20,066 nucleotides of DNA, taken from the IMG/VR virus record IMGVR_UViG_3300035698_006584, positions 1 to 20,066 of that record. One strand, 5' to 3'. Every line of letters starts with the position of its first letter. Position 1 is the first letter of the stretch. The notes beneath the pieces were generated by a model. That model was given only the letters and a program-made list of their open reading frames with translations, did not search any database and had not been told where the DNA came from. Below are positions 1,250 through 8,029 of this stretch, one piece after another. The position numbers were made by a program, and so were the translations under genes. This stretch comes from a virus.

Positions 1250-2248
1250 CTACTTTTTACTTTTTAACTCATTGAATAGTTGCTTATCTATGTAGTAATT
1301 TTGAAGTGAACCTGTCGTGCAGGCATCCAAGTAATCACAAGTCCACTTTCCCAGACATGCAACTTGGTTTCTATAAAACACTTTACATGGTTTAGTTTTC
1401 TTGCATGCTTCAAGCTTAAAAAATATGTCTTTAATCTTTCTAGATAGTTCATCTTTAAAGTCTGCTTTATTCTTATCACTGAATGGTGCCTCTATCCTAA
1501 TGAAATAGTGCTCAGGGTCTAATCTAATTTTCTCCCTCAACCTTTCAACGAAATCTGCAGGGTCTTCGTTTTGCTTCGGTTTGCTTCCGGGATTTCTAAT
1601 CACATCATAAAGAACACCTACGATATTCTTACCTGTTAATGCTTCCTTGGCAATCGTATAATATAAAGACTGGAAATCCATTGTTAGATATGTAATTAGT
1701 GGTTCTAATTGTATCTGCCCTTTTGTCTTCCTTTCAAGTAACCATTCCTTACCAGATTTTCTAGGTGAGAATTGACCATCAATCTTTCCCCTGCGTCTTG
1801 CATATATCCCATCTACCCCTGCTGGCACATCAAATATCTCTTCTGGTTCACCATACTTATTTTCCTTAAAGTCATTCTTATAAAACTCAACGTATTCTGC
1901 TAACACAGCAAATGCTTTTGTTGCAATGTCCTCCCGTTGTCTGTCTAGTATGGTTTCTGTCAAATTATCACATGCTATATCTATTGCCTTATCAATGAAA
2001 TGCTCACTGGTTTTCTTTTGTGAATAAACCATGTCTAAAACGTCATGCACTATATTACCAAAGACTGTGCCTGTTCCTGATGTTTTCTTTTTGACCTTAT
2101 TTATGCTAAATAGGAATGCTCTAGGGCAGTCCATAAAAGTATTTATCATACTCTGACTTAATCCTGTTTCAGCTAATGAAAAACCATTAGTATCTAAATC
2201 CGATACCCTTAAAAGCTTTCTTTTCCTTGGTAATTTTTTCTTTTTCAA
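1250..2248 (-). CDS. PD-(D/E)XK nuclease, RecB/Cas4-like, with probable Fe-S cluster
   Basis: In this 332-aa protein, SQSMINTFMDCPRAF (31-45) is the typical entry to the AddB/Cas4/RecB nuclease fold. H68 follows in FGNIVHDV, then GKIDG (D157), LLERKT (E172, K174) and a QSLYY motif near 193. Cys41 with Cys298, Cys304 and Cys310 in a C-terminal cluster could hold a 4Fe-4S centre, as in Cas4 and AddB. The start is TTG at 2248, chosen because a perfect AAAGGAGG lies 6 nt upstream and no ATG precedes the conserved core. The gene overlaps the end of the UDG-like gene by 62 nt. Next to Sak4 and an SSB-like gene it probably resects DNA ends for recombination or packaging. Confidence 0.8.
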   Translation of the reverse strand: MKKKKLPRKRKLLRVSDLDTNGFSLAETGLSQSMINTFMDCPRAFLFSINKVKKKTSGTGTVFGNIVHDVLDMVYSQKKTSEHFIDKAIDIACDNLTETILDRQREDIATKAFAVLAEYVEFYKNDFKENKYGEPEEIFDVPAGVDGIYARRRGKIDGQFSPRKSGKEWLLERKTKGQIQLEPLITYLTMDFQSLYYTIAKEALTGKNIVGVLYDVIRNPGSKPKQNEDPADFVERLREKIRLDPEHYFIRIEAPFSDKNKADFKDELSRKIKDIFFKLEACKKTKPCKVFYRNQVACLGKWTCDYLDACTTGSLQNYYIDKQLFNELKSKK

Positions 2249-2708
2249 TTCTTGCCTCCTTTAATCTTTTTAGCATCATGTAATAGTATGAACCACCTGT
2301 GCCACCGTCCTCTGCAATATATCGTAAATCCATAATGGACACAACATCAGGAAATGTCTTACCGTAAAACTCTTTAACCACAGTGCCTATTAGTATAACA
2401 GTATCACAACCACTTTTATCGTAAATTTCCATGATGTGTTGGGAACAGGCAATTTTACTCTTATCACTAATCTCACCATCACTTCGGCATAATACTATGT
2501 TAGTGAAGTAACAATCTGCCAAATCTATGTCTGCTGCAAGTAACAAATGTTCTAATATCTGTTTCTTCAGGCCAAGAAACGGCAGTCCTAACGATTCTTC
2601 GGCTCTAGTAATGCCATTGCCTACAATAAGGTAAGAACACGGAAGATTGCCTGTTCCTCTAACAATTCGTTTCCTTGTTTTGGACAATATGCATCGGGTA
2701 CAGTTCAT
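2187..2708 (-). CDS. Degenerate uracil-DNA glycosylase homologue (family 4/5-like)
   Basis: The 173-aa protein follows the family-4 UDG plan. It opens with CTRC (Cys3, Cys6), then YLIVGNG (26-32), LGLPFLG (40-46), TNIVLCRSD (69-77, Cys74), Cys88 and VILIG. The four cysteines that bind the 4Fe-4S cluster in family 4 appear to be kept. The active enzyme's GExPG loop reads GNGIT here, and no HPS/HPA loop is visible near the C-terminus, so uracil excision is doubtful. The ATG overlaps the stop of the upstream hydrolase as ATGA. The last 62 nt are shared with the nuclease gene. A base-binding protein, a glycosylase of altered specificity or an inactive homologue are all possible. Confidence 0.65.
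   Translation of the reverse strand: MNCTRCILSKTRKRIVRGTGNLPCSYLIVGNGITRAEESLGLPFLGLKKQILEHLLLAADIDLADCYFTNIVLCRSDGEISDKSKIACSQHIMEIYDKSGCDTVILIGTVVKEFYGKTFPDVVSIMDLRYIAEDGGTGGSYYYMMLKRLKEARIEKEKITKEKKAFKGIGFRY
2255..2262 (-). promoter_or_regulatory. Shine-Dalgarno AAAGGAGG for a TTG start
   Basis: AAAGGAGG on the minus strand is followed after 6 nt (CAAGAA) by the TTG at 2248. It lies inside the UDG-like coding region and decides the nuclease start. Confidence 0.75.
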
Positions 2709-3292
2709 ATTATAGTACCTTGGTTTATTTCAAATTTGAAATTAGGTTCTTTCATAACTAGTTCATGTGGTTTAATGTGTTTTAGCTTACCATCTGTATA
2801 AAAATTATTTCTGCAAAAATTTATGGCTTCTGAGCAATATTGTTTTTTATTTAATTTGTACTTTGCTTTCCTACTAATTTGCCTAATTGCAGCTTCTAAG
2901 TCATAAGGGTCTCCAATAAGGTTAACCATATTGTTAATGAATTCACCTAAACCATTTGCCCTTTCTTTACCTAGAGATATTTTAGGTCTAATTATGAATA
3001 ATCTACCTTTGAATCCATGGTACTCTTTAGAGAATCTGACAAGTTCAACTTTTTTTGACCCAAATAAACTCCAATTAGCTTCAATGATAAATAGTTGAGT
3101 TTTGACCCAAATAAACATACCAACATGGTTCATTTCACACTTTTCACTATTTATAAAATCACCTTTCCCAGCAGTAAACCACTTGATACATTTAGCAATT
3201 ATTTTTTTGCCCGAAGTACTTAGAATATCACCATCTTTAATACTTTTTCTTAAAAGAATATATGAATTTTTCCTACACTCATAACCACTCAT
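2705..3292 (-). CDS. Permuted papain-like (YiiX/NlpC-P60-type) hydrolase
   Basis: In this 195-aa protein, GDILST (21-26) precedes NHVGMF (His56), FIIEA (Glu71) and, much later, QYCSEAI (Cys153). A His-first, Cys-last order is the mark of circularly permuted NlpC/P60-like enzymes, which cleave peptidoglycan peptides or amide/thioester bonds. No signal peptide or cell-wall-binding repeat is seen. The ATG at 3292 was chosen because AGGAG lies 7 nt upstream; an ATG at 3319 lacks an SD. The stop overlaps the UDG-like start (ATGA). It sits among DNA-metabolism genes, away from the structural module, so an endolysin role is possible but not the obvious one. Confidence 0.65.
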   Translation of the reverse strand: MSGYECRKNSYILLRKSIKDGDILSTSGKKIIAKCIKWFTAGKGDFINSEKCEMNHVGMFIWVKTQLFIIEANWSLFGSKKVELVRFSKEYHGFKGRLFIIRPKISLGKERANGLGEFINNMVNLIGDPYDLEAAIRQISRKAKYKLNKKQYCSEAINFCRNNFYTDGKLKHIKPHELVMKEPNFKFEINQGTII

Positions 3293-3349
3293 TAGTTTTC
3301 TCCTATACTTTATTGACATATAATTTTATTAGTTTGATACTAGTTTCTA

Positions 3350-4765: not shown

Positions 4766-4896
4766 AGTGTTCTCCTTGTGTTTCGAGCATGAGCTCTACA
4801 ATTAGGGCACTTAGTGAAAGTAATTGACCTCCAAGTATGCTTACAAGCAATGCAATGGTAACTACTTAGTGTATTCTTTTTCTTCTTATTTATCAT
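4759..4896 (-). CDS. 45-aa zinc-ribbon protein
   Basis: The frame begins MINKKKKN, then YHCIACKHTW and KCPNCRAH: two CxxC knuckles 12 residues apart, a compact zinc ribbon, followed by a basic tail (ARNTRRTLC). GAGG lies upstream of the ATG. It overlaps the helicase stop as ATGA and the RuvC-like gene by 7 nt, so all three appear translationally coupled. A DNA-binding accessory of the helicase or resolvase is a reasonable guess from position only. Confidence 0.65.
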   Translation of the reverse strand: MINKKKKNTLSSYHCIACKHTWRSITFTKCPNCRAHARNTRRTLC

Positions 4897-6239
4897 CTTT
4901 TGTTCCTCTGTATAGTAGTTATTATTCTATGAGCAATTTGGGATTCTACCTCATTCTTCCTAATGCCCTGTAGTATTGATTCTTCAACAGTATCCTGAGT
5001 CACAAAGTCAATAATTAGTAATGACTTGTCTTTACCAATCTTAACAAATCTATCCTCACTTTGTGCCCGTGTTTCACTATATGGTGTTGAGTAGTAAATC
5101 ATTGTATCAGAAACAGACAAATCTGTCCCATATTTAAAGCAGGTAGGTTGTCCTATGAAATACTTAACTCTTTTGCTCATAAAATCTTTTCTTGCCTGCT
5201 CTCTTTTTGCAGGGTTAATCTTTCCATATACTGGGATAGAGTTAGGCAGTATTTCATGTAACCTTTCAATCTCATCAATAAACATACACCAGATAATCAC
5301 TTGCTCGTTTTTCAGCTCACCATTTAGTAGACTTAGTAATTCCTGTTCCTTGTGATTAAATTTATGCTCCCCCTCAATAAAGCCACCGCATAATCTACGC
5401 ATCCATAAAAACTTTTCCATACTCCAGATAGTTGACTTATGTACCTCATTGTATTCGAGTATAAATTCCTCCTCAATTTTCTTATAAACTTTTCTAAATC
5501 CTTTCTTAGGTCGTATCAATCTTGTCCTGTATATTTTCTCACCACCTAAGCCAACATCATCTCGCTTGAGAAAGAAGCACTTTTCTGCTAAAATTTTATA
5601 TAGTTTCTCCCTGGCCTTCCTTCGTATAAAATAACCTGCTCCTGTTTCTACAAACCATTTACTCCTAAACTCCCAGAAGTTCTTAAAACCAAGGATATTT
5701 GGGTCAAGAAAAAACAGTTGACAAAAATAATCCATCTCACTATTTACCATCGGTGTCCCTGTAAGAATCCACTTGTACTTTACATGAGCAAACTTAGTAC
5801 AGTAATAATGAGTGACTTGTGGTGAATATTTGCCTGTCTGTTTATTTCGTTTCCATGGTGTCTTTATAAAGGTTGACTCATCAAGCACAACCACATCCCA
5901 GTCATAGTCACATAGTTCGGGAAGATTCAGAAATCCTTCTTTGTTAATTAGGTAGTATTTAGCATCAGATTTGAAGAACTCAGGGAGCGCTGAGCTTCTT
6001 TCTTCGCCTGTACCTGACACCAAAAAACTACCGTTATCACCAATCTCTGTCTGCCAACCAAATAGAACAGAATAAGGCCCTACAACTAATACTTTCTTAA
6101 CACTAGATGGGTATGAGTTTATCCGTCTTACAGCGACTAGAGTCTTCCCCAACCTCATTTCCATAAACAATGCAGGAGTATCTGTGTTACGGGAGTACCT
6201 AAGGGCCTGTACCTGATATGGTCGTAATATCTTATTCAT
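4893..6239 (-). CDS. SNF2-type superfamily 2 helicase/ATPase
   Basis: In this 448-aa protein the Q-motif-like RPYQ is at 6-9, motif I MRLGKT at 28-33, motif II DEST at 120-123, motif III LTGTP at 159-163 and motif VI QSEDRFVKIG at 393-402. A C-terminal TVEESILQGI segment follows. This is the compact phage SNF2 form with DES in place of DEAH. It translocates on or remodels duplex DNA in replication or recombination. I chose the ATG at 6239, which overlaps the upstream stop by 8 nt with GGAGAG upstream. A longer frame from 6341 would run about 110 nt into the previous gene. Confidence 0.8.
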   Translation of the reverse strand: MNKILRPYQVQALRYSRNTDTPALFMEMRLGKTLVAVRRINSYPSSVKKVLVVGPYSVLFGWQTEIGDNGSFLVSGTGEERSSALPEFFKSDAKYYLINKEGFLNLPELCDYDWDVVVLDESTFIKTPWKRNKQTGKYSPQVTHYYCTKFAHVKYKWILTGTPMVNSEMDYFCQLFFLDPNILGFKNFWEFRSKWFVETGAGYFIRRKAREKLYKILAEKCFFLKRDDVGLGGEKIYRTRLIRPKKGFRKVYKKIEEEFILEYNEVHKSTIWSMEKFLWMRRLCGGFIEGEHKFNHKEQELLSLLNGELKNEQVIIWCMFIDEIERLHEILPNSIPVYGKINPAKREQARKDFMSKRVKYFIGQPTCFKYGTDLSVSDTMIYYSTPYSETRAQSEDRFVKIGKDKSLLIIDFVTQDTVEESILQGIRKNEVESQIAHRIITTIQRNKR

Positions 6240-7326
6240 AAAATTCTTTACTCTCCATAACAACCTTTCTAAATGCTGACAAGTTATCCCATTGTTTATA
6301 AAACTTTTCTGTCTTATCAGGTGAACCTTTTCCAAGAACATAATATCTATAATTAGTCATTAACTTTCTATTCATCTTTATGCCCTCATTTGCATAACCA
6401 ATACCTAACAATCTATACTGCAATCTAAGTATCGCCTTATGCAGTGTCATTATTGGGAAACTCTCGCTTGGATATATCACTTCCCATTTATCATAAACTA
6501 TGTCTTCAATCTTCCACTTAGAGTTACCACTCATTATTGTATTTACCATGGTAACAAAGCCCCAGAATCCTGCTGTTGCTCTAGACAGTTTTTCATTCAC
6601 TTCTGAGTAACCATCTGGTAGTGACCTTAGAACACTATTTCTAGTCATCATGTCCTCCGATGTTTTATCTAACTTTTTAGTGTACTCATATATCTGTTCT
6701 TTCATTTTGTCCATGACCACTGGGTGAAGATCAGGATACATTGACAAACCAAGCTTAGCGAAACCTGCTTTCCTTGCCTCCTCATAAATCTCCTTGTCTG
6801 GTGTGATAGTATATCCTTTTATATGACCAAGATTCTTTAGCAATTTACCAGCAGAAATTATTGCTTCAAGTGGTTCAGCTTTTGGTCTAAAATTGAATAC
6901 TATGTAGTCATATTTTATCAGTGTGAAGAAACGCACTATTATTCTTTCAACATACAACAGGTAGGCTTCTAATACATAACCAAGAATCTTTGCGTTTCCT
7001 ACTGCGTCATACATCGTGTAGGGATAGCAATTATCATACTGTAAAGGTATAATTCCTCCCGATGAGCAAACCATGAAGTCAACACTACTTAATTCAGTCA
7101 AAAAATTCTTCCATTTTCTACCCTTTGAATAAGGACGTGTCATAGTACATAAGGACATAAAAGCTATCCTATGCTTTGGTACAAATTGTTTTAGAATTTC
7201 TTCCTGTGCTTGAGCAACAACAGGATGGTTTATAATAGGCTCTACTGTACCACTGATTTCTTCCTTTGGAACCCAATCTTCTTTAGGTACTAATTTAGTA
7301 GAACCCCAGTTGTTAGTCTTCTTCAT
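6232..7326 (-). CDS. DUF5591-like (archaeosine-synthase-type domain) protein
   Basis: In this 364-aa protein, residues 34-107 follow the DUF5591 pattern of archaeosine synthase. HP.V (34-37) is followed by SLCTMTRPYSK (58-68, cf. PC..KPYS), CSSGGIIP (87-94, cf. SSPLGVVP) and YPYTMYD (101-107, cf. YPA..YD). The His after KPYS.S in the archaeal family appears to be a Trp here. The C-terminal ~170 residues are unassigned. The ATG at 7326 follows GGAGG at 12 nt and overlaps queC by 14 nt; a longer TTG-started frame from 7359 is less likely. Coupled to QueC, it probably acts on preQ0 or a preQ0-bearing nucleotide. Reaction unknown. Confidence 0.6.
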   Translation of the reverse strand: MKKTNNWGSTKLVPKEDWVPKEEISGTVEPIINHPVVAQAQEEILKQFVPKHRIAFMSLCTMTRPYSKGRKWKNFLTELSSVDFMVCSSGGIIPLQYDNCYPYTMYDAVGNAKILGYVLEAYLLYVERIIVRFFTLIKYDYIVFNFRPKAEPLEAIISAGKLLKNLGHIKGYTITPDKEIYEEARKAGFAKLGLSMYPDLHPVVMDKMKEQIYEYTKKLDKTSEDMMTRNSVLRSLPDGYSEVNEKLSRATAGFWGFVTMVNTIMSGNSKWKIEDIVYDKWEVIYPSESFPIMTLHKAILRLQYRLLGIGYANEGIKMNRKLMTNYRYYVLGKGSPDKTEKFYKQWDNLSAFRKVVMESKEFYE

Positions 7327-8029
7327 AATTAGTTGGGTCCTCCACCCTTGCAAGTTCAAATGCTTCTTTACGCTCTACACAGGTGCCACATTTACCACAG
7401 TGCTTTTCACCACCCTTGTAACAACTCCACGTATTTGTGAAGTCTACTCCCACCTCATGACCAAGGGATACTATGTTTGCTTTATTGTACGACAGAAAAT
7501 CTGAACGAATCTGAACCTTATTGTAGGTACCATAAGCACCTGCCTCACTCATTGTTCTAATAAAAGTATTCCTGCAGTCAGGGTATATTGCATGGTCACC
7601 ATCGTGTGCCCCAATTAGAACATACTTCAGATTGTTACTTTCAGCCAACCCGATTGCTATACTTAGCATAATACCATTCCTGAATGGGACTACTGTGCTT
7701 TTCATTGTGCTATCCTCATAATGCCCCTCAGGGATTGCACCACCAGATTTTAGCAAACTACTCTTAAAGAATTTATTCATAAACCCTAAGTCTATTACAT
7801 GATGTGGAATCCTAAGTTTAACGCAGTTTAATTCCGCCTTTGCAATTTCTTTACTGTTATGTTTGGCCCCATAATCAAAGCTCACTGCAAGTGCAATACG
7901 TTCCTTATTCTTATGCAACATTACTGTACTGTCTAATCCTCCTGAATATATGAGCACAGAATCCTTCATTCTTGCCCTCATTTCTGACTTGACTTCCCTC
8001 TTTATTTCTAGAAAGGTATCTTCACTCAT
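7313..8029 (-). CDS. queC: 7-cyano-7-deazaguanine synthase QueC
   Basis: QueC converts 7-carboxy-7-deazaguanine to preQ0 using ATP and ammonia. The 238-aa protein has the PP-loop SGGLDST (29-35) and the C-terminal zinc site Cys203, Cys211, Cys214, Cys217 (HCGKCGTCVERKEAF), all expected for an active enzyme. The N-terminus is about 20 residues longer than usual, but GGGGAGGG 4-5 nt before the ATG supports it. The start overlaps the 49-aa gene as ATGA. No QueD, QueE, FolE or DpdA is visible here, so CDG must come from elsewhere in the phage or from the host. In phages QueC normally serves 7-deazaguanine DNA modification. Confidence 0.9.
   Translation of the reverse strand: MSEDTFLEIKREVKSEMRARMKDSVLIYSGGLDSTVMLHKNKERIALAVSFDYGAKHNSKEIAKAELNCVKLRIPHHVIDLGFMNKFFKSSLLKSGGAIPEGHYEDSTMKSTVVPFRNGIMLSIAIGLAESNNLKYVLIGAHDGDHAIYPDCRNTFIRTMSEAGAYGTYNKVQIRSDFLSYNKANIVSLGHEVGVDFTNTWSCYKGGEKHCGKCGTCVERKEAFELARVEDPTNYEED

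Follow-up and report, generated by a model that had tools for sequence, protein, structure and literature searches.

A stand-alone viral DUF5591 protein coupled to QueC as a candidate preQ0-nitrile tailoring enzyme

The chemistry of archaeal archaeosine synthase (ArcS) on preQ0 is established, and in Thermococcus kodakarensis the enzyme, which forms a working complex with RaSEA, attaches lysine to preQ0 (PMC11298593). Related bases occur in phage DNA; for example, dPreQ0, dADG and dG+ amount to 0.11%, 0.035% and 0.02% of G in Vibrio phage nt-1 (PMC6884629), and dPreQ1 reaches 15% of G in the QueF-bearing phage 6E351A (PMC12028318). The function of the phage 'ArcS homolog' was called unclear by Hutinet et al. 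2019 (PMC6884629). No report of a viral DUF5591 protein being assayed biochemically was found, although later work on phage ArcS homologs may exist.

The nt-1 ArcS of that study is evidently VPFG_00169 (YP_008125320), which we infer because no second DUF5591 gene was found in nt-1 and because DpdA2 is named separately (YP_008125322). The protein described here is encoded in a linear fragment of 20,066 bases from an IMG/VR virus record (the window, meaning the whole stretch that was analysed). Like VPFG_00169, a DUF5591 protein within a preQ0/DpdA2 cluster, it carries the same motifs, Trp included, and the two share about 38% identity over 209 residues. Unlike the window protein, VPFG_00169 has 226 aa, lacks a tail and keeps an Arg-Asn pair, and QueD, FolE and DpdA2 adjoin its gene. 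To call the activity undescribed, as the original prediction did, was therefore too strong, since a homolog had evidently been named ArcS already (PMC6884629).

The gene pair and its surroundings

The features of the locus are collected in Table 1. The 14-nt overlap noted earlier between the genes for QueC and the DUF5591 protein (7313-7326) was borne out. The likely ATG of the SNF2-type helicase at 6239 creates an 8-nt overlap with the DUF5591 stop (ATGAATAA, 6232-6239), so that helicase and DUF5591 protein are probably co-translated; the helicase is not thought to be part of the preQ0 pathway. Elsewhere in the window, a uracil-DNA-glycosylase superfamily protein (2187-2708, minus strand; PF03167, 28 bits) scores 52 bits against the UDG family 4 model, below the cut-off, and apparently lacks the usual motifs, and the gene at 2705-3319 (minus strand) gives a weak match to YiiX-type permuted papain-like amidases (20.5 bits, cut-off 27).

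Table 1. Features of the QueC/DUF5591 locus in the window
Feature	Position	Strand	Details
SNF2-type helicase	4893-6239	-	Pfam SNF2-rel_dom 46 bits; phrog_62 8e-81
DUF5591-bearing protein	6232-7326	-	364 aa; ATG at 7326, stop at 6232
C-terminal extension of DUF5591 protein	6232-6675	-	residues 218-364; predicted all-helical
DUF5591 / viral ArcS-core domain	6676-7326	-	residues 1-217 of the 364-aa protein
Codons 151-152, Glu-Pro	6871-6876	-	alignment columns against viral relatives
QueC (7-cyano-7-deazaguanine synthase)	7313-8029	-	238 aa; TIGR00364, Pfam QueC, motifs
GGAGG, ribosome-binding-like, within queC	7339-7343	-	12 nt before ATG at 7326; read from sequence

The identification of QueC by its SGGLDST loop and four zinc cysteines agrees with TIGR00364 (1.8e-52, 177.8 bits, cut-off 150.3), with Pfam QueC (7.9e-58, 195.8 bits) and with the motifs, as the SGGLDS P-loop, VPFRN, YPDC and all four cysteines are kept and only YxQxHxxE is altered, to YGAKHNSKE. 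The alteration is a clade trait, since a large group of related QueC proteins (L150-L173 and others), which belong to otherwise complete preQ0/DpdA clusters, share its form at this place (YGSNH.., as in YGSNHNKRE); degeneration of QueC alongside its partner was thus rejected. The closest viral relatives of the window QueC (59-63% identity) also sit in preQ0/DpdA clusters, but these are without DUF5591, and on such sequence comparisons the QueC-DUF5591 pair looks mosaic. A separate oddity concerns the QueC proteins of L121 (8235-8999), L122 (8639-9403), L133 (9136-9891) and L128 (8879-9580), in which none of the four zinc cysteines is left (SYDGKYPPTDMNHAN; DYDG..LESNPAT) while the P-loop and YGQxH persist; the loss seems to have happened in two lineages independently, and the genes belong to full preQ0/DpdA/DUF5591 clusters.

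In six frames of the window, profiles built from relatives found no DpdA, QueD, QueE or FolE, FolE and DpdA2 searches of the record gave no match, and no TGT fold with a DSGG/DSGA motif was detected. The earlier observation that no DpdA-type transglycosylase is visible in 20 kb was thereby confirmed for a record that is a fragment. In most relatives, unlike the window, QueD, QueE, FolE and DpdA lie within a few kb of DUF5591. When the helicase was used to look for a more extended contig from this phage, no match was obtained, and the loci of relatives of the tape-measure protein held no pathway genes. A link to archaeal tRNA function was rejected, the window having no TGT, RaSEA or tRNA genes.

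Domain identity and relation to archaeal ArcS

The assignment of the 364-aa protein to DUF5591 was upheld by a Pfam match to residues 41-147 (2.7e-7, 31 bits, cut-off 26; 1.8e-9 in a search of its own genome) together with the expected RPYSK, CSSGGIIP and YPYTMYD motifs. A profile search over 6232-7326 hence placed DUF5591 above its cut-off and the curated NCBIfam ArcS model far below (14 bits against 440). The domain also carries the viral signature LCTxTRPY, KW, S(N/S)GG..P, YP and YD. Residues 1 to about 217 were modelled with pLDDT of about 90-97 over most blocks, and the best Foldseek matches of the domain were the nt-1 DUF5591 protein (2.3e-19) and Archaeoglobus AF0587 (PDB 2q07, 7.5e-4). 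AF0587 is also the best solved relative of a profile of 13 viral sequences (7.7e-12), and comparison of viral DUF5591 with archaeal ArcS by hhalign gave 1e-11. AF0587 is presumably to be classed near the uracil-DNA glycosylase fold, and weak SMUG1 matches from the Foldseek side of the structural search agree with a UDG-like fold and are not significant.

Archaeal ArcS, a lysine transferase working with RaSEA, shares with the viral protein the DUF5591 domain, the C..(K/R)PY core and the G(I/V).P, YP and YD positions, but it has a TGT half, a His and the Arg of the PRE motif, which the viral protein is without, and a PUA domain, which was not detected in the viral protein. The absence of the TGT half had been noted before and is supported by the lack of such a Pfam match and by a helical tail; likewise, no PUA domain was detected with Pfam. 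When the window protein was aligned with 11 archaeal ArcS proteins, the PC...KPY..S..H motif of ArcS was not found in it (LCTMTRPYSKGRKW). Cys60, (K/R)PY, Pro94, Pro102 and Tyr106 are kept between viral and archaeal DUF5591, whereas the viral copies have Leu for Pro before the Cys and Trp (once Tyr) for His, and nearly all of them, the window copy included, have lost the PRE Arg. Trp in place of the family His is indeed present (Trp72), but it is a trait of the viral family and not of this copy, since 22 of 23 viral sequences have Trp. RaSEA (TIGR01210) was found in none of 18 viral records, the window included, many of which are fragments. Judged by homology and context, the viral protein would work like the core of ArcS, but by its defining features it is not ArcS.

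The short stand-alone DUF5591 proteins of Archaea (~230 aa) and AF0587 resemble the viral proteins in having no TGT half, but they keep the His and PRE motifs, and the viral proteins form a clade of their own (100/99 in a tree with archaeal proteins). All 13 methanogen genomes searched, chosen as McrA-bearing, gave DUF5591 matches; 12 encode both a full-length ArcS-like protein (174-212 bits) and a short stand-alone one (54-70 bits), and the remaining genome gave a weak match only. Beside ArcS, methanogens (L107-L114) thus carry a protein of about 230 aa whose neighbours, as far as seen, are not preQ0 genes.

The viral family and the window copy

The viral set comprises 22 distinct sequences besides the window, nt-1 included, most of them from IMG/VR; among 50,697 phage records, the only clear and only annotated relatives are those of Vibrio phages nt-1 and CZ01. 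A motif search for relatives in cellular organisms confirmed none. Identity of the window domain to the viral relatives is 29-49%. Because the relatives were found via the DUF5591 motif and not via QueC, their neighbouring genes were not selected for. QueC nevertheless lies in the same stretch in 20 of 22 cases and a DpdA/TGT-like gene in 19 of 22 (of the three exceptions, one is truncated where its contig stops and a second comes from a contig of 4.7 kb), usually along with QueD, QueE and FolE. The DpdA-like genes were called by PHROG 887 (queuine tRNA-ribosyltransferase; 3e-50 and 4e-46) and by PHROG 10773, which holds the published nt-1 DpdA2; profile comparisons gave 1.3e-8 and 2.6e-5, and one comparison between groups was weak. 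In KVP40-like phages and in several DUF5591 clusters, QueC is immediately followed by a small Gat-like gene of PHROG 12378 (L002 11651-12259; L013 5367-6041; L136, L138; KVP40.0125), an arrangement that looks like a split Gat-QueC.

The closest DUF5591 relatives (47-49%), from the IMG/VR clusters L004/L010, L006 and L128, have QueC and DUF5591 in one operon, and in L004 and L006, as also in L121, the two genes overlap as in the window. They differ from the window in their complete DpdA, QueC, QueD, QueE and FolE sets and in their proteins of 208-228 aa, which keep Arg-Asn. The window copy has Glu-Pro at residues 151-152, where 21 of the other 22 viral proteins have Arg-Asn; Asn152 is invariant in those 22 and Arg151 is absent only in L134. 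Homology with the viral relatives reaches about residue 217, so that the C-terminus said to be unassigned remains so, at ~147 rather than ~170 residues. The open reading frames of the relatives are about 208-252 aa long and none therefore has such a tail. No relative of residues 218-364 was found in Pfam, PHROGs, phage records, IMG/VR, the PDB or the open reading frames of the fetched viral loci, and structure models of this part were of low confidence. As far as the sequences indicate, Glu-Pro in place of Arg-Asn and the tail are particular to this copy among its viral relatives.

These features bear on the main rival explanation, which takes the window copy for a remnant, in decay or put to another use, in a phage whose pathway is incomplete, the original catalysis of DUF5591 having been lost. 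The window branch, with an end branch 0.78 long, groups with L004, L006, L010 and L128 (support 99/97), and since these sisters keep the pair, the most parsimonious view is that it was lost, and the tail gained, in the window lineage alone. Furthermore, no other pathway gene lies within 20 kb, and the sole other copy without the Arg (L134, 9938-10669, Arg replaced by Ile) is an orphan in a 192-kb contig lacking QueC and DpdA2, with FolE far off. However, the open frame of 364 aa is undamaged and has a good start site, the fold of the domain is predicted with confidence, and the coupling is to a QueC retaining nearly all motifs. Some archaeal ArcS proteins (L102, L103) also lack the Arg, so its loss need not abolish activity. 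Decay or repurposing is on balance somewhat unlikely.

A possible role in preQ0 tailoring

We favour the reading, with a probability of roughly one half, in which the window protein is a stand-alone enzyme of the viral DUF5591 (ArcS-core) family that tailors the nitrile of preQ0 in place of QueF, with DpdA outside the fragment. QueC would make preQ0 from CDG, the DUF5591 protein would turn the nitrile into an amidine, for example archaeosine, by adding an amine (ammonia or that of an amino donor) across it, a step that would replace QueF in some phages, and insertion of the base into phage DNA would fall to a DpdA-type transglycosylase encoded beyond the 20-kb fragment. Observed are the domain, the coupling to QueC, the linkage of the family as a whole to preQ0 and DpdA genes, and the exchange with QueF among Vibrio phages; the reaction, the order in which the steps occur and a DpdA gene in this phage are inferred. 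The gene order is QueD-FolE-DpdA2-QueF-QueC-Gat in KVP40 and 6E35.1a, with QueF confirmed by Pfam, and QueD-DUF5591-FolE-DpdA2-QueC-Gat in nt-1; DUF5591 stands in for QueF in nt-1 as compared with the KVP40-type clusters. The QueF model gave weak matches in 17 DUF5591-bearing records, and all that could be placed fell on the related FolE; co-occurrence of QueF with DUF5591 in these records was rejected. The nucleoside contents published for nt-1 and 6E351A are in keeping with different tailoring in DUF5591 and QueF phages.

Against nitrile tailoring stand the loss from the window copy of both the family Arg-Asn pair and the archaeal PRE Arg, the absence of DpdA, QueD, QueE and FolE from the window, and the finding that nt-1 dG+ is only 0.02% of G and could be supplied by VPFG_00173, the Gat-like gene of nt-1. 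Because Gat is common to KVP40-type phages and nt-1, DUF5591 is the better candidate for nt-1 dG+, though unproven. It is also conceivable, but very unlikely, that DUF5591, like bacterial DpdC, converts the nitrile by hydration or hydrolysis into the amide ADG rather than forming an amidine. The presence of dADG in nt-1 DNA would agree with this route, which Hutinet et al. 2019 raised for phage ArcS, but dADG was also detected in phages that have no ArcS homolog, and the same authors named natural oxidation as a source of it (PMC6884629).

The original prediction that the protein either alters preQ0 or helps to place it in DNA stands as regards a role in 7-deazaguanine chemistry, given the QueC and DpdA context of the family. 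Alteration of preQ0 fits better than help with placing it, since DpdA is a separate gene in the clusters and KVP40-type phages have QueF in place of DUF5591. A role as partner subunit of DpdA, the transglycosylase, in recognition or dimerisation would explain the near-constant linkage to DpdA and the arrangement in the 306-kb jumbo phage contig L123 (286018-305993), where two DUF5591 genes directly precede two DpdA2 genes. The same contig has two further, more distant DpdA2-like genes, four in all, so there is no strict DUF5591/DpdA pairing; moreover, KVP40-type phages have DpdA2 without DUF5591, and none of roughly 65 QueC loci, many of them with DpdA, has DUF5591. A partner role is distinctly improbable.

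Within the tailoring reading, the amine donor may stay attached to the base made by the viral enzyme, as searches of DUF5591-bearing viral records found no RaSEA, and the window copy, with its altered pair and added tail, may use a further donor or substrate; we consider this quite unlikely. If the donor were kept, an as yet undescribed base would be present in phage DNA (e.g. preQ0-lysine or another amino-acid amidine). The function of the phage ArcS homolog was left open in 2019, and some two dozen viral DUF5591 clusters, the QueF swap and the invariant residues make it directly testable, with the window copy as a natural test of the need for the Arg-Asn pair.
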